Shown here in pieces: positions 11,195 through 22,661 of a stretch of DNA of 22,916 nucleotides. The DNA comes from a bacterium (lineage in GTDB: Bacteria; ARS69). Location: NCBI GenBank assembly GCA_025774805.1, contig JALGZR010000115.1:1-22916 (forward strand). Direction: 5' to 3'. A program made the translations under genes and the position numbers. The number at the start of each line of letters is the position of its first letter. The first letter of the stretch is position 1. The notes beneath the pieces were generated by a model. It ran no database searches, had not been told where the DNA came from, and saw only the letters and a list, made by a program, of their open reading frames with translations.

Positions 11195-12755
11195 ATGTTC
11201 CGCAAGGTGTTGATCGCCAACCGGGGGGAGATCGCGGTCCGGGTGATCCGAGCCCTCCGCGAGATGCGGATCCCCTCGTGCGCCGTCTACTCGGAAGTCG
11301 ATCGCAACGCCTTGCACGTGCTCCTCGCCGACGAGGCGGTGGCGATCGGTCCCGCCCCGGCGACCGAGAGCTACCTCGCGCAGGAAAAGATCCTCGGCGC
11401 GGCGCGCGAGGTCGGCGCGGAGGCCATTCACCCCGGGTACGGCTTCCTCGCCGAGAACGCGGAGTTCTCCGCGGCGTGCGAGGAGGCGGGGATCGCGTTC
11501 GTGGGGCCGCCGCCGTCGGCGATCATTTCGATGGGCGACAAGGCGGAGGCGAAGCTGAAGGTCGGGCAGGCGGGGGTTCCGGTCGTCCCCGGCAGCCTCG
11601 AGCCGGTCTCGGACGCCGAGGCCCGCGAGATGGCGAAGGAGATCGGATTCCCGGTGCTGCTGAAGGCGGCGAAGGGAGGCGGCGGTAAGGGGATGCGCGC
11701 CGTGCACCGCGAGTCGGACCTCGACGCGGCCCTCCGCCTGACGCGCGGGGAGGCGGAGTCCTCGTTCGGCAGCGGAGACCTCCTCGTGGAGAAGCTCGTC
11801 GAGCGGCCCCGCCACGTCGAGGCGCAGATCCTCGCCGATCGCCACGGGCGGACCGTGTTCGTCGGGGAGCGCGAGTGCTCGATCCAGCGCCGCCACCAGA
11901 AGGTCATCGAAGAGGCGCCGAGTCCCACGCTCGGAGCGGACCGTCGGGCCGAGTTCGGAGAGGTGGCCGTGAAGGCGGCCGAGTCCGTCGACTACGTCAA
12001 CGCGGGCACGGTCGAGTTCCTTCTCGCCCCGGACGGCTCCTACTACTTCCTGGAGATGAACACCCGCCTCCAGGTCGAGCACCCCGTCACCGAGGAGACG
12101 ACGGGCATTGATCTCGTGAAGGAGCAGATCAAGATCGCCGCCGGCGAGCACCTCACGCTGCGCGATCGGATCGATCCGCGCGGACACGCGATCGAGTGCC
12201 GGATCTACGCGGAGGATCCGACGAAGGGCTTTCTCCCGTCGGTCGGGCGGATCCAGTTCCTCCGGCCCCCGGACGGTGGTCGGGCGGATCCAGTTCCTCC
12301 GGCCCCCGGACGGTCCCGGCATTCGCCACGACTGCGGGGTCTACGAGGGCTTCCAGGTCCCGATCCACTACGATCCGATGCTCGCCAAGCTCATCACGCG
12401 GGGAGCGAACCGGACCGAGGCCACGATCCGGATGCAGTCGGCGCTGATCGAGTACCGCATCGAGGGACCGACGACGAACATCCCCTTCCTGAGATGGATC
12501 CTGGCTCACCCCGACTTCATCGAGAACCGGGTCGACACGCGATGGCTCGAGGAGGTGCAGGAGGGCTACGAGCCGATCGGAATCGGTCAGGGACGACGGG
12601 AGGACGTGGCGGCCGTCGCGGCCGCGATTCATATCCACCGGACCACCTCCGAGGCCAGCCGGACCGGGGCGGACGGCCGAGGGGAGGCGGACGGTCTCTC
12701 TCCGTGGGTTCGCGTGGGCAGGGCCCGGCGCTTTGGACTCCGGGGGCGAGCATGA
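11195..12755 (+). CDS. Acyl-CoA (propionyl-CoA-type) carboxylase, biotin carboxylase subunit; frame broken by a 37-bp duplication
   Basis: Biotin carboxylase loads CO2 onto biotin using ATP and bicarbonate. The N-terminus MFRKVLIANRGEIAVRVIRA, H-P-G-Y-G-F-L-A-E-N (79-88), ATP-grasp loop K-G-G-G-G-K-G-M (160-167) and E-M-N-T-R-L-Q-V-E-H-P-V-T (287-299) are all canonical. At codon 349-361 an exact 37-bp tandem duplication (12241-12314) shifts the frame. The proper C-terminal domain (starting P-G-I-R-H-D-C-G-V-Y-E-G-F) continues in the +1 frame to the stop at 12753-12755. Removing one copy gives a normal protein of about 507 aa. As printed, the original frame stays open by chance through about 160 nonsense residues and joins the biotin carrier in frame, so an automated caller will report a false fusion ending at 13285. 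GAGGAGG precedes the start. Confidence 0.9.
12241..12314 (+). repeat. Exact 37-bp tandem duplication inside the biotin carboxylase gene
   Basis: Copy 1 (12241-12277) and copy 2 (12278-12314) are identical, beginning GGTCGGGCGGATCCAGTTCC and ending GGACGGT, with no spacer. The flanks differ at once on both sides (C versus T before, G versus C after). The length is not a multiple of three, so it causes the frameshift. Confidence 0.97.
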
Positions 12756-13713: not shown

Positions 13714-13722
13714 TCCCCCTCA
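13689..13722. terminator. Inverted repeat spanning two convergent gene ends (possible bidirectional terminator)
   Basis: TGAGGGGGA (13689-13697) pairs perfectly with TCCCCCTCA (13714-13722) around a 16-nt loop. It covers the stop codons of both the epimerase (plus) and the M64 lipoprotein (minus), which are only 6 nt apart. There is no T-tract on either side, so termination by this hairpin alone is uncertain. Confidence 0.4.
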
Positions 13723-15594
13723 GTTCGAAAAGATCGGCGGGTTCCGGATGGTCTTGGCCAGGGTGTCCTGACACACCTCGCAGAACGGATACTTGATGCC
13801 GCGCATCTTGCACCGGGAGGACGCCCGGAAGAACGGAGCACCCTGCGGGTCATTCAACGGGTCGCAGCCGGCGAGCTCGACCGACTCGACGAAGCCGCAC
13901 CCCCAGTAAGCCCCGAGCATGATCCAGTTTCCGTTCACATCGTCGTCCCACGAGTTGTGGTCGTCGTTGCAGGAGGTGTCCAATCTCCGATGAACCGGGA
14001 AGCCGCTGTCGGCCACGATCGTCTGCCACCAGACGTCACCTGCGTCCACCTGGGCCAGCGTGGCCATGTTCGGGTAGGTGCTCTCCCCGTCCCACTCTCC
14101 CCATCCGATGTATTCGTCCATCAGACGGGCCAGCGCGTGACCGAGCTCGTGCACGGCGATGTGGGCGAACACAGAGTCCTTCATGACCGGGGAGAGCGTG
14201 GTTCCGAGACCCAAACCGCAGGTCGGGTAGTAGACGTCGGGAGGAATCCCAACGTAACAGATTCGGCGGGACTCGTCCGAGTCGGTCCGGGCCGCCTGGT
14301 GCACGCAGTTCGCGATCATCACGTGGGCGTGGGCCCCTTCCGGGCCCAGGGACTCTGCGGCCGCCTCGTGCACTCTCCAGATGTCACCGTCCTCCATACC
14401 GAGAAACGAGGGCCAGGCCACGGGCTGGCCTTCGGCTCGGGCCTCGGCGGCCTGGGCGGCGGCGGCATCACACGTCATCGGGGTGTCGGGCTGGTAGCAC
14501 TTGCGGACCCGGTAGTGGGTCGGGACTTGAGTGCTGTCGTCCTCGCAGTAGGTGATCCCCGACGTCTGAGACACCGCCCGCACCCGGAGGATCCGGATGC
14601 TGTCGGCCAGGGTCGCGAACGGCTCGACGTTGAGAAGCGTGTCGACGAGGGCCTGCGAGTAGTGGAAGAACGTCGCACTGTCCGCGGCCGAGGCATCGAA
14701 GCCGTCGCCGTGGATGACGATGGTCAGGGGCGACCCGGCGGGTGAGGAATGGGGCTCGTCGACCGTCACGATCCCGACGGGTCGGTCGAACAGCTCTCTC
14801 AAACGGAACTCCAGGAGAGGGTGGAGGCGGACCTTCTCCAGCAGATCGAGGGGATCCTCGATCCCGAACGGAGGACCGAGATCCAGGTGATCCGGGAAAC
14901 CGTCGGGTAGCGGACTCGGTCCGGGTTCGGGCCCCGGCGTGGGCATGAAGGCGATCCCCCCGGTGTAACGCACCCCGAGCCAACGCTTGGACGGCGTCTC
15001 CGGGGGCCCGGCCGGCGGAGAGATCGGTCCGCGGATGGCGTGAAACCCTTGGAACGGTCCCGTGGGCCGTTCCGGATCGAACGGCCCGCTGTCCGCATCG
15101 GGAACCCGAACGTGGAAGAACGCGAGAAACGCGGCTTCGCGCAGTACCGGAAGATCGAACACGAAGCGCTTGATCTCCGGAATCCGTGTCGATCCGTGGA
15201 GCCCCGTACCGACGTTGTCGAAGAAGACCGTCATCCGCTTCGACCGGGCGCGGGACAGAAGGGCCGCACCCTCTCGATCGTAGAGAACCGCCGCGATCCC
15301 GTCGCTGCCCCGGGGATCGCCCGGCGGTGGGAGCGCGGGGCCCAGGACGTGACCCGGTCTCTCATCCCGTTTTCCGGAGCGCATCCAGACCTGGCGGATG
15401 TGGAATCCCTCGGGATCCTCCTCCACCGAAACCAGGACCCGCGGGAAGGGCGTCACGGGAGGCTTCGGGGGGACGGCACGAGCGGGGACCCGCTCCTCTC
15501 CGCAGCCCGCCACGAGAAGCGCGAGAACGAAGAGCAGCCCCGACGCGGCGGAGACTCCGGATCGACGGAACGGCCGAGCATCGACGAATCTCAT
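13720..15594 (-). CDS. Lipoprotein zinc metallopeptidase, M64 (IgA peptidase) family-like
   Basis: A 624-residue predicted lipoprotein. The signal ends with lipobox L-V-A-G-C (Cys31). Residues ~45-270 are a divergent N-terminal domain, followed by an M64-like peptidase domain. That domain opens with I-V-I-H-G-D-G-F-D (292-300), continues with a helix ending E-P-F-A-T-L-A-D and an S-x-T-S-G-I segment, and carries the zinc motif V-H-E-L-G-H-A-L-A-R-L-M-D-E-Y (481-495; His482, Glu483, His486, with Asp493/Glu494 conserved in M64). It closes with the family's C-K-M-R...F-C-E-V-C tail (595-608). Catalytic residues look intact. The ATG has AAAGGA at proper spacing and lies 26 nt after the radical SAM gene, so co-transcription is likely. 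It could mature or degrade the peptides encoded upstream, or have an independent role. Confidence 0.8.
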   Translation of the reverse strand: MRFVDARPFRRSGVSAASGLLFVLALLVAGCGEERVPARAVPPKPPVTPFPRVLVSVEEDPEGFHIRQVWMRSGKRDERPGHVLGPALPPPGDPRGSDGIAAVLYDREGAALLSRARSKRMTVFFDNVGTGLHGSTRIPEIKRFVFDLPVLREAAFLAFFHVRVPDADSGPFDPERPTGPFQGFHAIRGPISPPAGPPETPSKRWLGVRYTGGIAFMPTPGPEPGPSPLPDGFPDHLDLGPPFGIEDPLDLLEKVRLHPLLEFRLRELFDRPVGIVTVDEPHSSPAGSPLTIVIHGDGFDASAADSATFFHYSQALVDTLLNVEPFATLADSIRILRVRAVSQTSGITYCEDDSTQVPTHYRVRKCYQPDTPMTCDAAAAQAAEARAEGQPVAWPSFLGMEDGDIWRVHEAAAESLGPEGAHAHVMIANCVHQAARTDSDESRRICYVGIPPDVYYPTCGLGLGTTLSPVMKDSVFAHIAVHELGHALARLMDEYIGWGEWDGESTYPNMATLAQVDAGDVWWQTIVADSGFPVHRRLDTSCNDDHNSWDDDVNGNWIMLGAYWGCGFVESVELAGCDPLNDPQGAPFFRASSRCKMRGIKYPFCEVCQDTLAKTIRNPPIFSN

Positions 15595-15620
15595 GTCCCG
15601 GTCCTTTCTCGGTAGAGGCT

Positions 15621-16847
15621 CTACGGCTCACCCTCGGGGCTCTCCGGGTCCTTCTCGACGACGGTGAGAACCGGAATCGGCAGGGGAAGCGGCGACGGAC
15701 GCGTCAGGGTTCCGATCTCCCGGGCGAGGAGATCGCTGTGCTCGAGGGCGGCGAGATTGAAGGCGCAAACGAAGTCCGGAACCCGCCGCGGGTCGTCGTT
15801 GTTCGGGAGGTGCCCGATCGCGACCGGGCAGAATCGGCATCGCGAAAGATAGACGCAGTCCCGGCAGGCTCCGTAGGACGAGTACTTCTCCTCCTTGCGC
15901 GAGAAGAGCTCCTCCCGTGCGGTCGCCTCGTGCAGGCGCGCGCTCCTCTCCTCCAGCTCCGGCGCCCCGATCGAGCCGAGGGAGAGCGGCGCCGTCCGGT
16001 CCCGGAGCATCGCAGGCGAGAAGTGCTGGTAGCTGCCCGCGAGGGCGACGCACCGCACGACGCGGCCGTCCACGTCCACGGCGATCCGTCCGGACCGCCC
16101 GACGCCGCACATCGGGATCTCCGACCGGGGTCTCTCCCGGGGAGGGCGGTCGGGAAAGAGCGGACCGAACGGAACGCGTCCGGTTCTCCGGTAGTGATCC
16201 CTCAACCGAGGCACGACTCGCCCCATCTGCCCCCGGAGAGGCTCGAGCCAATCCTCGTCCCAGCCGGGGGCCGGAGTGATGCACGGCCCCGTCCGGATGT
16301 CGGCGACGTCATTGCGCAGGAAGTACTCGACGGTCTCCGCCAAGTGCGGGACCGAGCGGGGCAAGAGCGTCGTCGCGATCTCGAGATGGGAGTGATACCA
16401 GTCGGGATGGCGCTCCCGAATGTCGTCGAGAAGGGCGTCGAGCGCGTCGAAGGTCCCGGGAGCGCGCTCGTCCTGCAGGACCGGCAATCCGTCGAGGCTC
16501 AGTCGCAGATGGAAGCCGTGGTCGATCAGGTAGTCCAGAACGGAGCGTTCGAGCAGGGTCCCGTTCGTGGCCAGCGAGAGGACGAGGTCCTGTCCCGGGC
16601 GGCGGAGAGACTCCGCCCGGGCGACGGCGGCCCGGAGACTCTCGAGCTCGAGGAGCGGCTCCCCTCCGTAGAAGTGAATGGACACCCGCAGAAAGGGCGA
16701 CGCCATCACCCGATCCACGGCCGTCTCGAGAGTCTCCCGAGACATCCGTCCCGGTCCCTTGTCATCCTGATAGCAATAGGCGCACCGGAGGTTGCATTGC
16801 TTCGTGAGAACGACGGTGAGGCTTTCGATCCCGGAGGGGACGGCCAT
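15621..16847 (-). CDS. Radical SAM/SPASM domain enzyme, candidate peptide maturase
   Basis: A 408-residue enzyme. The radical SAM cluster motif C-N-L-R-C-A-Y-C uses Cys18, Cys22 and Cys25, followed by Y-G-G-E-P-L-L (SAM-binding GGEP) near residues 60-66 and A-T-N-G-T-L-L. A SPASM domain in the C-terminal third has Cys247 and Cys266 (C-x18-C), then C-x2-C-x5-C-x2-C at Cys328/331/337/340, and Cys361, enough for two auxiliary Fe-S clusters. SPASM enzymes typically modify ribosomal peptides (thioether, C-C or epimer links) or activate sulfatases. No sulfatase is nearby, but two small peptides sit directly upstream, so a RiPP maturase role is favoured. The ATG at 16847 has GGAGG 7 nt upstream; the open frame extends further upstream in unsupported sequence. 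No RRE-like fused domain is visible at the N-terminus. Confidence 0.88.
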   Translation of the reverse strand: MAVPSGIESLTVVLTKQCNLRCAYCYQDDKGPGRMSRETLETAVDRVMASPFLRVSIHFYGGEPLLELESLRAAVARAESLRRPGQDLVLSLATNGTLLERSVLDYLIDHGFHLRLSLDGLPVLQDERAPGTFDALDALLDDIRERHPDWYHSHLEIATTLLPRSVPHLAETVEYFLRNDVADIRTGPCITPAPGWDEDWLEPLRGQMGRVVPRLRDHYRRTGRVPFGPLFPDRPPRERPRSEIPMCGVGRSGRIAVDVDGRVVRCVALAGSYQHFSPAMLRDRTAPLSLGSIGAPELEERSARLHEATAREELFSRKEEKYSSYGACRDCVYLSRCRFCPVAIGHLPNNDDPRRVPDFVCAFNLAALEHSDLLAREIGTLTRPSPLPLPIPVLTVVEKDPESPEGEP

Positions 16848-16926
16848 GGTTTCCCTCCCGAGCACCGGTGCGGACGCCGGGCGCCGCCCCCCGGGGATCG
16901 AGGGGACCGCCCGCCGGGAAGAGCGA

Positions 16927-17151
16927 TCAGGGAGAGCAGTCGCCGGGGTTGAGAGGTGCCGGGTCCGTGCCGTTCGTGATGCTCTGCACGAGATCCAGCA
17001 GCTTGTCCACCGTGGTGTTTTCGTAAACGATCTCCGCATCCCGGGGTTGGGGGCAGGAGATCTGCATCAGCTTCTCGGCGTACTCCTTGAGCTTCGTGGC
17101 GGCGTCACAGAGCTCGCCGGCGGTGACCTTGCTCTCCGAGGGACTGACCAT
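16927..17151 (-). CDS. Small peptide A (74 aa), candidate RiPP precursor with PLNPGDC C-terminus
   Basis: A 74-residue protein unrecognised in any family I know. It has an amphipathic helical first half (T-A-G-E-L-C-D-A-A-T-K-L-K-E-Y), a middle N-T-T-V-D-K-L-L-D-L segment (45-54) and the C-terminal A-P-L-N-P-G-D-C-S-P (65-74). Cysteines are at 15, 33 and 72. It is clearly paralogous to peptide B encoded 183 nt upstream: the same order of helix, N-[TS]-T-V segment and PLNPG-x-C end. The ATG at 17151 has AGAGG 7 nt upstream; a TTG directly before it is less likely. The rSAM gene starts 79 nt downstream on the same strand. Precursor function is inferred from size, paired copies and context. Confidence 0.75.
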   Translation of the reverse strand: MVSPSESKVTAGELCDAATKLKEYAEKLMQISCPQPRDAEIVYENTTVDKLLDLVQSITNGTDPAPLNPGDCSP

Positions 17152-17283
17152 CAATGCACCTCTCTTTTTCGGTACGTGAACGGATTCGAAACGGCGCCCT
17201 CACGGACTCGTTCCTCTCGGCAGGTGCCTTCACTCGAGGCGGGCCCGCCGCCCTTTGACGGGCGGAAGCGCCTCGACGACGGA

Positions 17284-17315
17284 CCCGGACGCGGCGTGCC
17301 GCCGCCGCGGCCGGG
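17284..17315 (-). other. Strong GC hairpin just downstream of small peptide B
   Basis: A symmetric stem: CCCGG (17284-17288) with CCGGG (17311-17315), a 2x2 internal loop, then GCGGCG (17291-17296) with CGCCGC (17303-17308), closed by a 6-nt loop. On the minus strand it begins 18 nt after the stop of peptide B and has no U-tract. It could protect or attenuate the transcript, raising peptide B over downstream genes. The rest of the 182-nt spacer between the peptide genes shows no other feature. Confidence 0.45.
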
Positions 17316-17333
17316 CCGGGTGAGATTCGCCGG

Positions 17334-17570
17334 CTAGCAGCCGCCCGGGTTCAGGGGCATCGGCTCCACCTGGGTCCGGACGTTGTTGATCAGGGCCCGA
17401 AGCGTCTCCACGGTCGAGTTCGGCTCATATTCGAACGCGGCTTCCTTGTCCTGCCACTCGCACAGCTCCATCCACGCCTCGCCCCACTGCTTGAGGATCT
17501 TCCCGCTTTCATAGAGCTCGTCGTACGTGATCGTCGACATCGGCGGCGTGCCATTCGGCGGCGGCGTCAT
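17334..17570 (-). CDS. Small peptide B (78 aa), candidate RiPP precursor with PLNPGGC C-terminus
   Basis: A 78-residue protein, unrecognised as a family. After a Pro-rich start it has an amphipathic helix (T-Y-D-E-L-Y-E-S-G-K-I-L-K-Q-W, about 15-29), the segment N-S-T-V-E-T-L-R-A-L (51-60) and ends exactly at Cys78 in M-P-L-N-P-G-G-C. Cysteines are only at 37 and 78. It aligns along most of its length with peptide A. I chose the ATG at 17570 because GAGG lies 7 nt upstream; an internal ATG at 17540 has no ribosome site and the open frame further upstream overlaps the kinase gene. It starts 43 nt after the kinase stop on the same strand. Confidence 0.75.
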   Translation of the reverse strand: MTPPPNGTPPMSTITYDELYESGKILKQWGEAWMELCEWQDKEAAFEYEPNSTVETLRALINNVRTQVEPMPLNPGGC

Positions 17571-17613
17571 CGCTTCACCTCGATTCGGTTCACCCGGGAA
17601 GAGAAGAGTGATC

Positions 17614-20277
17614 TCAACGCGTCGACTCGATCGTCCAAACGTGTCCTCTCGGGGCAATGCGAGAGAATGCTAACAGATCCTCGGTGGGCGAGAGGTCGAA
17701 AAACGGGGGACTCTCCGGACCTCCGAAGACGATCGCGTCGTGTTCCTCTCGAACCTCTCCGGTGGAGGGGTCGATCACGCGACACTGGAGTCGATCCTCT
17801 CCCCACGTTCCGCAGACCCAGAGATCACCGGATGCACAGCTCCAGCGCACTCGCAGCGCGGAGGCCCCGTCCGTGATCCGTCGGGGCGAATCCCCTCCGT
17901 CCACCCCCACGATACACACTTCGCGAGCGCCGTTCCGCGAGCCCACGTAGGCGAGCTCCCGTCCGTCGGGAGACCAGACCGGCGTGAACGGGATCTCCTG
18001 GCGACCCATCACGCGGCGAGGTTCGCCGGTCGTCACTCCGTCCTCCACGGGAACGATCCAGATTTGGAAGCCGTCCTCCCGATCGGAGACGAACGCGATC
18101 TCCCTCCCGTCCGGAGACCAGGACGGATGAAGATCCGCGGCGGGGTGGTCGGTCAGGCGCTGCGCCTCGCCCCCCTGAGCGGGAAACGCCCACAGGTCTC
18201 TCACCTCTCCCTGGATCCGGTAGCACGCGATCCAGCGGCCGTCGGGGGAGAACGCCGGGTGCGAGACGGTGGGCCCCCCGTCGCTGAGGCGCCTGGGCGG
18301 GCCGGCGGGCCGCCCGTTCTCGAGCGGCTGGATCCACAGCTCCGCGGTCCTTCCCCACCGCTTCGAGACGAAGGCCACGGCCGATCCGTCGGGCGCCAGC
18401 GTCGGCATCCGGTCGTCCCGGGAACCGGGGATCGGGAATTGCCGATTGGTCTTCACATCCTTCAACAGGATCTCCTCGTGGTCCGATCGGGTGGAGTACG
18501 CGAAGCGCCGGCCGTCCCGGGAGAAGGTCGGGTGGCCCTCGGAGCCCGACCCGAGGGAGTACCGCCGGGGCTCGCCGCCGTCGGCCCCCACCCACCAGAG
18601 GGCCGCGATGCCGTCCCGATGGGACTCGAAGACGATGGCGGTCCCCGACGGAGCCCACGTCGGATCGATGGCGATGCTCCCGACTCCGGTGAGGGGCCGC
18701 GCTTCCCCGCCGTCGGCGGGGATCTCCCAGAGACGGTCGTGTCCCGTGTACACGATCGTACGGCAGTTCGGGGACCACGCGGGATTCATGTGGTTGAACA
18801 GGCCGTCACCATCTCGCGTGAGGAGGCGGGCGTCGGTCGGATTCTCGAGAGTCGCAACGCCGATTCGAATGAACCCGCCGGCTCGGGCTCGGGCGAAGGC
18901 GAGCCGGCGTCCGTCGGGGGAGATCGCCGCGTTCTTCGCGTCGGGCAGCAGGAGCGTGCCTCCCCCTCCCATCTGTCCGACTTTCCAGAGCGATACGTCC
19001 TGTCCGTCGTCGTGCGTGTAAACGATCGCACTTCCGTCGGGGAACCAGGCGGGCTCCGTCTCCTGGCCCGGACTGTCGGTGATCCGGAGCGCGTTGCCTC
19101 CGCGCGCGTCCACGATGTAGATGTCGGAGTTCCCGCCCCGGTCGGACGCGAACGCGATCCGGCTCCCGTCCGGAGAGAGCGCGGGATCCCGATTCCAGCC
19201 GTCTCCCGTGGTGACCTGACGGGGCGTCCCGTCGGGGATCGGACTCCCACCTCCCTCTCGCGCCACCATCCACACGATCGCCGCGACCGCCGCCACCATG
19301 GCGACCCCCAGGGCCCAGCCCAGCAGCCGCGGGCGGGGGCGCGGAAGAACCCCGTTCGTGCTCGTGGACGAGTACTCGCTGAACTCCAGATCCCGTCGCA
19401 GCGTCCGGAGAGCTCCCCGGAGCGCACGCGCATCGGGATAGCGGTCGTCGGGGGATTTCCGAAGACACTTGAGGATGATCCGCTCGAGCTCCGGAGGCGT
19501 CTCCGGCACGTACCGGGCGAACGACTCGGGATCCCGGTGGACGATCCGGTCGAAGATCTCGCCGAACTGATCGCCGGGAAACGCGGGTACGCCCGTGGCG
19601 AGCTCGTACAACACCGCGCCCAGGGAGAAGAGGTCGGTTCTCCTGTCGACCTCCTTGCCGAGGGCCTGCTCGGGAGACATGTAGCGTGGGGTCCCGAGCA
19701 CGGTCCCCATCGTCGTGATCTCGGTCGGCTGCGCGGAGATCGTGGATTGCTCCTCGGGCGGGATCAGAACCCGGGCGAGACCGAAGTCGGACAGGAGGGC
19801 ACCGCCGTCCTGATGGATGAGGATGTTCCGAGGATTCACGTCCCGGTGGAGCACGTTTCGCGCGTGGGCGGCCTCCAGCGCGCCGGCGAGCTGCTCCCCC
19901 CAACGCAGGGTCTTCTCGATCGGAGGGCGCCCGCGGCTCAGGACGGTCCGGAGATCCTCCCCCTCGACGAGCTCGAGGGCGATCCAGGGGAGGCCGTTCG
20001 CCTCGAACGTGTCGTAGACCTGAACGATGCCCGAGTGCGTCACGCGGGCCGTGGCGCGCGCTTCCTGGAGGAAGCGCTGGCGGATCTTCGGGTCGGCGGC
20101 CAGATGGGGCCAGGGGCACTTGAGCGCGACCTGACGCTCCAGACGGGGATCCCGGGCGCGGTAGACCACGCCCATTCCGCCGTGGCCGATCTCCGAGAGG
20201 ATCTCGTAGTCCCGGATTCTCTGGCCGGGACGGGCCGGGTGCGATCTCTCGCCCTCGCTCTCGGAGTGACGCGTCAA
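17614..20277 (-). CDS. Membrane Ser/Thr protein kinase (PknB type) with extracytoplasmic TolB/PD40 beta-propeller
   Basis: An 887-residue single-pass membrane kinase. The cytoplasmic kinase domain is about 24-295: glycine loop E-I-G-H-G-G-M-G-V-V-Y (29-39), catalytic Lys53 in V-A-L-K, HRD at 144-146, DFG at 164-166 and an S-P-E replacing APE at 201-203. The catalytic loop reads H-R-D-V-N-P-R-N, with Asn where most kinases have Lys. A transmembrane helix lies at about 318-339. The remaining ~540 residues hold about eleven S-P-D-G-type PD40 repeats forming one or two propellers outside the cytoplasm. The start is TTG at 20277, chosen because GAGGAGG lies 7 nt upstream; an in-frame ATG at 20385 lacks a ribosome site. 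It is the first gene of the peptide-rSAM-M64 series and may sense an external signal, though such kinases are numerous in these phyla. Confidence 0.9.
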   Translation of the reverse strand: MTRHSESEGERSHPARPGQRIRDYEILSEIGHGGMGVVYRARDPRLERQVALKCPWPHLAADPKIRQRFLQEARATARVTHSGIVQVYDTFEANGLPWIALELVEGEDLRTVLSRGRPPIEKTLRWGEQLAGALEAAHARNVLHRDVNPRNILIHQDGGALLSDFGLARVLIPPEEQSTISAQPTEITTMGTVLGTPRYMSPEQALGKEVDRRTDLFSLGAVLYELATGVPAFPGDQFGEIFDRIVHRDPESFARYVPETPPELERIILKCLRKSPDDRYPDARALRGALRTLRRDLEFSEYSSTSTNGVLPRPRPRLLGWALGVAMVAAVAAIVWMVAREGGGSPIPDGTPRQVTTGDGWNRDPALSPDGSRIAFASDRGGNSDIYIVDARGGNALRITDSPGQETEPAWFPDGSAIVYTHDDGQDVSLWKVGQMGGGGTLLLPDAKNAAISPDGRRLAFARARAGGFIRIGVATLENPTDARLLTRDGDGLFNHMNPAWSPNCRTIVYTGHDRLWEIPADGGEARPLTGVGSIAIDPTWAPSGTAIVFESHRDGIAALWWVGADGGEPRRYSLGSGSEGHPTFSRDGRRFAYSTRSDHEEILLKDVKTNRQFPIPGSRDDRMPTLAPDGSAVAFVSKRWGRTAELWIQPLENGRPAGPPRRLSDGGPTVSHPAFSPDGRWIACYRIQGEVRDLWAFPAQGGEAQRLTDHPAADLHPSWSPDGREIAFVSDREDGFQIWIVPVEDGVTTGEPRRVMGRQEIPFTPVWSPDGRELAYVGSRNGAREVCIVGVDGGDSPRRITDGASALRVRWSCASGDLWVCGTWGEDRLQCRVIDPSTGEVREEHDAIVFGGPESPPFFDLSPTEDLLAFSRIAPRGHVWTIESTR

Positions 20278-21169: not shown

Positions 21170-22661
<1,492 letters not shown>

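Follow-up and report, generated by a model that had tools for sequence, protein, structure and literature searches.

Radical SAM RiPP systems are usually associated with the production of antimicrobials, cofactors or quorum signals, and radical SAM enzymes also turn peptides into cofactors or crosslinked subunits, as is the case for PQQ, mycofactocin and quinohemoprotein. To our knowledge, most of the propeller-bearing Ser/Thr kinases of Acidobacteriota-like bacteria have no known signal. The locus described here resembles several known systems in one part or another. The PapB system of Paenibacillus polymyxa (NF047865, freyrasin) has the same combination of a short SPASM radical SAM enzyme and a Cys-containing precursor, and the PapB motif is Cys-Xn-Asp (PMC9413430). 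CteB, the thioether-forming SCIFF maturase of thermocellin (PDB 5wgg), is like the enzyme of the locus, and so is ChlB (PDB 9gm3, a structure that includes its precursor's leader) in length and overall fold, a likeness taken from the PDB title and the fold match alone. In graspetide loci, the gene for the small LPL proteins is found directly upstream of the SPASM gene (PMC8939145). Finally, the TolB-propeller or PD40-propeller Ser/Thr kinases have the kinase, transmembrane (TM) segment and propeller architecture seen here, and TolB itself binds peptides (colicin boxes) and Pal.

The locus lies in a window of 22,916 nucleotides, by which we mean the whole stretch of DNA that was analysed. It holds five genes, all on the minus strand, and the gaps between them, in the order from the kinase to the M64 lipoprotein, are 43, 182, 79 and 26 nt:

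17614..20277, minus strand, Ser/Thr kinase-TM-propeller gene (887 aa; TTG start), first gene of the unit
17617..19250, minus strand, propeller domain within the kinase, the module-specific part of that protein
17334..17570, minus strand, peptide 1 (78 aa), with the N-terminal helix TITYDEL..., Cys37 and the C-terminal PLNPGGC
16927..17151, minus strand, peptide 2 (74 aa), with the N-terminal helix KVTAGEL..., Cys15, Cys33 and the C-terminal PLNPGDCSP
15621..16847, minus strand, radical SAM/SPASM enzyme (408 aa), with CX3CX2C and the full SPASM cysteine set
13720..15594, minus strand, M64 zinc peptidase lipoprotein (624 aa), with the lipobox LVAGC and HELGH

An earlier note on this DNA had described these five genes as a RiPP-like system. 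The coordinates and gaps it gave are exact, and the identities it assigned are supported by Pfam (Pkinase and PD40, Radical_SAM, Peptidase_M64) and, for SPASM, by the full cysteine motif. Elsewhere in the window, stretches of 37 and 47 nt are perfectly duplicated in tandem (12241-12314 and 22025-22118), and each duplication frameshifts a conserved gene, a biotin carboxylase-type gene and sufB as named by eye; both duplications are probably artefacts of the MAG assembly.

The window enzyme matches Radical_SAM of Pfam with 55.6 bits and SPASM with 15.2 bits, which is below the cut-off. The SPASM pattern, CX3CX2C plus C-Xn-G-X4-C ... CX2CX5CX2-3C ... C, is present in the window enzyme and in its relatives, and not one of the radical SAM and SPASM cysteines varies among the 21 aligned enzymes. 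Among solved structures CteB is the best match in both fold and sequence, and the SPASM cysteines in such a CteB-like enzyme imply two auxiliary clusters. In the structural model (mean pLDDT 87) the radical SAM core begins from about residue 10, and no N-terminal winged helix, as expected of an RRE domain, could be seen in the enzyme itself. The best curated match is the PapB family NF047865, which is matched by 21/21 enzymes with a best E-value of 6e-43; the window enzyme scores 114.9 bits, about a third of the cut-off of 340.

Relatives were gathered with the enzyme as sole bait. A first scan gave 3 loci, labelled Vicinamibacteria, Acidobacteria and Krumholzibacteriia, all with a propeller kinase followed by a small ORF and the enzyme, and later profile searches brought the collection to 27 loci in 24 genomes, the window included. 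The search covered the phyla reached from the first matches together with 290 relatives, among which there was one match outside the window's own genome. The module is found in Acidobacteriota, in the phylum of a Krumholzibacteriia MAG, in a third small phylum and in the window's own phylum. Since the enzyme family was present in 13/396 genomes of a phylum-wide draw (at a score of at least 217 bits), in 5/80 genomes of the phylum of the Krumholzibacteriia MAG, in 3/20 of the third phylum and in 1/5 of the window's phylum, the distribution is wide but patchy.

The conserved unit is a kinase-TM-propeller gene, one or two small peptide genes and a SPASM radical SAM enzyme gene, on one strand and in that order. 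Wherever the upstream DNA could be read, which was the case for 26 loci, a propeller gene of the same clade as the window's stands directly upstream of the rest on the same strand; the contig of the remaining locus, L062, begins too late for its upstream part to be read. A kinase domain could be recognised in 22 loci and could not be judged in L005, L055 and L070, which meet contig ends (in L005 the propeller end alone is visible at the contig edge), or in L053, where a run of N precedes the propeller. Such a recurring order is not due to chance. It is true that kinases are numerous in these genomes (in the window genome, G000, the window kinase matches 32 kinase domains, only a few of which come with PD40 propellers), and chance neighbours in kinase-rich genomes could be imagined; that idea is refuted by the adjacency in 26/26 cases with the same order and orientation, by a propeller that is specific to the clade, and by the lower-score control enzymes L065-L067 (n = 3), none of which has such a kinase beside it.

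The link between enzyme and propeller can also be followed across whole genomes. In a class of 38 genomes around G163, the enzyme occurs in G006, G069, G163, G210 and G336 (497-539 bits). A propeller profile that included 4 of these 5 propellers, the one of G163 being left out, and that was scored against at most 35 candidates per genome, which is a minor reservation, found the identical five genomes (719-821 bits) and no other at E 1e-100. The chance of identical sets of 5 in 38 genomes is 1/C(38,5), 1 in 501,942 or about 2e-6. There is a sixth, weak enzyme match in this class, partial and of 141 bits, in G179. The earlier note had made the kinase part of the system, but it underrated a gene that is the constant partner of the enzyme, both in the readable loci and in this class. 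The identical distribution also speaks against a reading in which the product of the enzyme is a cofactor derived from a peptide, or a crosslinked structural protein, and the kinase is unrelated, merely co-regulated. Peptide-processing radical SAM enzymes of that kind are known, and QhpD-like models score weakly for the window enzyme, but no partner oxidoreductase recurs near the loci, and we find this explanation very improbable. Congruence of enzyme and propeller distances, as a sign of one shared history of the pair, was weak (r = 0.19, p = 0.11) and was not retained.

The window kinase matches Pkinase with 145 bits and PD40 ten times, and has the motifs HRDVNP and DFG. With a kinase domain, one TM helix and PD40 repeats it belongs to the TolB-propeller transmembrane Ser/Thr kinases. 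A hydrophobic segment separates the kinase from the propeller in every kinase examined, and the propeller would therefore sit outside the cytoplasm. The model of the propeller (mean pLDDT 89) shows the TM helix and a long series of beta-blades, which fits a tandem propeller; with a pTM of 0.75, how its two halves are placed relative to each other is uncertain. By sequence, its closest solved relative is TolB. It is the propeller that sets these kinases apart. Compared with the window propeller, the full-length linked propellers score 336-502 bits as against 58-88 bits for the propeller-bearing paralogues of the window genome, and the linked propellers that are not cut are, together with the TM segment, nearly collinear over 579-599 residues. 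The kinase domains are less distinctive, with 142-286 bits for the linked ones and mostly 116-227 bits for the paralogues in the window genome.

The earlier note had also proposed that the small peptides and the radical SAM enzyme form an undescribed system, an idea that withstood a search for related enzymes that consistently stand without such peptides. One or two small ORFs were found between kinase and enzyme in every locus, and in 27/27 loci a Cys-containing one lies directly ahead of the enzyme. Both window peptides have GAGGTG ahead of them, and their own frame is the one that best fits the codon usage of the kinase next to them. They are similar to each other, as the note had it, with 36% identity in alignment and a common PLNPG[GD]C end. 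A purine-rich ribosome-binding site precedes most of the 27 peptides tested, and for 24 of them local codon usage favours the annotated frame. Judged from the sequence, they have a weakly conserved N-terminal helix, often with (I/V)TxxEL, and in many cases a second one, and the variable stretch falls between or after the helices. No evident signal sequence was found in the peptides. Every one of the 27 peptides contains Cys, which makes up 2.45% of the residues compared to 0.85% in the linked kinases (chance of all having it, 1.4e-7). Gly is enriched at positions -4 to -1 of Cys, 34 as compared to 17.6 expected, and Pro or Gly at -6, -4 and -3.

In a leave-one-out test, a profile of the peptides ranked the true peptide first in 15/25 cases among 33-155 ORFs, where about 0.3 would be expected by our estimate. 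The profile is weak, and L060 and L086 are among the peptides it fails to recover. Because the peptide set was chosen by position, these tests are supportive and not an independent discovery. The peptides do resemble each other, if weakly, and no more than this would be expected of precursors whose cores vary. Neither the window peptides nor P0008, P0009 and P0010 could be placed in a precursor family of NCBIfam or Pfam, the few matches being weak and unrelated (E at least 0.016), which agrees with the earlier view that they fall outside the known precursor classes (SCIFF, Nif11, NHLP, geopeptide and others). The PLNPGxC motif was too narrow to be the family signature it had been taken for, its exact form being restricted to the window among the 27 loci; what is general is a core Cys mostly flanked by Gly or Pro. 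The window's PLNPGGC and PLNPGDC fit the same pattern as the peptide of L084, which repeats KKGC, and the peptide of L086 (L086:6538-6996), which has its eight core cysteines in a WPGxSC-like unit that recurs, is the clearest candidate substrate for mapping the modification.

A few peptides depart from this picture. The one at L051:3555-3794 has a six-Cys stretch at the N-terminal and the helix at the C-terminal, the reverse of most others. In G856, which carries L084 and L085, the peptides are very short, 43 and 32 aa, the small ORF of L085 having one Cys in its 32 residues, and both enzyme matches have internal stop codons; these copies of the module may be decaying or misassembled.

It is likely that the peptides are substrates of the enzyme and are modified by it. 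They could instead be adaptors, PqqD-like or LPL-like, guiding the enzyme to some other substrate such as the kinase. Their helical character and their place directly upstream of the SPASM gene, the same position as that of the LPL proteins in graspetide loci, would suit such a role; on the other hand, variable cores with a near-obligatory Cys, mostly Gly/Pro-flanked and repeated in L086 and L084, fit a substrate better, and there is no invariant Cys among the aligned linked propellers that could be the target. We regard adaptors as decidedly unlikely.

As for the bond that is formed, a PapB-type reaction was considered and set aside. Compared with shuffled peptides, Asp and Glu are not enriched at +4 or at +1 to +7 after Cys, and of the five cysteines in the window peptides Cys37 of peptide 1 (CEWQD) is alone in fitting a Cys-X3-Asp/Glu motif. 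Since acidic residues after Cys are not enriched, the Cys-Xn-Asp chemistry is unsupported. Our most likely guess is a Cys-derived crosslink, that is, a thioether.

The M64 gene of the window belongs to Peptidase_M64 (PF09471; 39.9 bits, cut-off 26) and has the HELGH motif. It had been seen as a core part of the system, a place it cannot keep; an M64 gene adjoins the enzyme in just 3/27 loci, the window, L048 and L049, and is therefore accessory. A clear lipobox is present in the window copy only, while the divergent copies in the other two loci (L048:8460-9776 and L049:3329-5389) have no obvious signal peptide by eye, and that of L049 has a long Lys-rich C-terminal tail. A search of 12 genomes found 0-2 M64 genes per genome, with the window's own gene below the threshold. 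In G005 and G126 the enzyme-adjacent M64 scored 57-59 bits, far below the other M64 of those genomes, which makes this a divergent subtype that keeps turning up with the module in some of the loci. Perhaps it trims the peptide.

Apart from the M64 gene, the surroundings of the unit bear on whether this is an ordinary RiPP natural-product cluster, with an exported peptide that acts on other cells and a kinase linked to the cluster as regulator or immunity sensor. A SPASM enzyme next to hypervariable peptides with Cys cores is the usual RiPP layout, and the peptidase in three loci could be counted in its favour, as could the sole exporter-like neighbour noticed, an ABC transporter gene in L083 (L083:1697-3829) that shares the strand of the kinase ORF and lies 51 nt upstream of it. 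In the 27 loci there is no conserved exporter or leader protease next to the unit, a feature that is common, though not universal, among RiPPs, and this argues against a standard exported natural product. Furthermore, the peptide cores diverge, yet the dedicated propeller remains the same from one phylum to the next. An ordinary cluster seems rather unlikely to us.

We favour another reading and think it fairly probable, namely that the unit is an undescribed RiPP-like three-gene signalling-type module, in which a dedicated, receptor-like kinase is the working partner of a peptide modified at Cys. It takes as its basis what was observed, that is, the gene order with its conservation and co-occurrence, the SPASM cysteines, the coding evidence for the peptides and their Cys enrichment. 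The operon would encode a transmembrane Ser/Thr kinase with its dedicated propeller facing outward, one or two Cys-bearing precursor peptides and the SPASM enzyme. The enzyme would recognise the N-terminal helix of the peptide without the help of an RRE domain and modify the Gly/Pro-flanked Cys core, most likely by the thioether crosslink suggested above. The modified peptide would then become a partner of the kinase encoded beside it, either as its ligand or as a regulator, probably by way of the propeller, and in the window and its two relatives the added M64 peptidase may trim it. We infer both the chemistry and the contact between peptide and kinase, the latter from gene context. Going one step further, it is conceivable, although we put this forward tentatively, that the kinase has the modified peptide as its dedicated ligand or regulator, and that the unit is a new signalling circuit spread across several phyla. 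The lack of a signal sequence and of a conserved exporter or protease leaves the route of the peptide to an outward propeller unexplained, which counts against the mechanism. The peptide may instead contact the kinase domain in the cytoplasm.

If the peptide is the ligand, this would give one of the many propeller-bearing Ser/Thr kinases a defined ligand, and the enzyme would represent a new maturase family that works without an RRE domain. Occurring in several little-studied phyla, the module may be an undescribed use of a chemically modified peptide in cell signalling, and with three genes it is small enough to be tested directly by co-expression. Literature searches, with most subscription journals outside their coverage and so as weak evidence of absence, found no description of a kinase-peptide-SPASM module.

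As judged by the family models, the enzyme and the peptides are outside every curated family, and each of the closest known systems differs from the module. Contrary to PapB, the window peptides have no Cys-X3-Asp repeats, the enzyme scores far below the family cut-off, and a propeller kinase is a constant partner. CteB has an N-terminal RRE and SCIFF peptides have six cysteines, and the score of the window enzyme with TIGR03974 is far below the cut-off; compared with ChlB, it is of a different sequence family. The LPL and graspetide loci differ in that the unit here has no ATP-grasp ligase and its peptides have variable Cys cores. The linked propellers, unlike those of the other propeller kinases in the window genome, form a tight, nearly collinear and distant group. 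The novelty of the module is that of a radical-SAM-plus-peptide system distinguished by its constant kinase partner.
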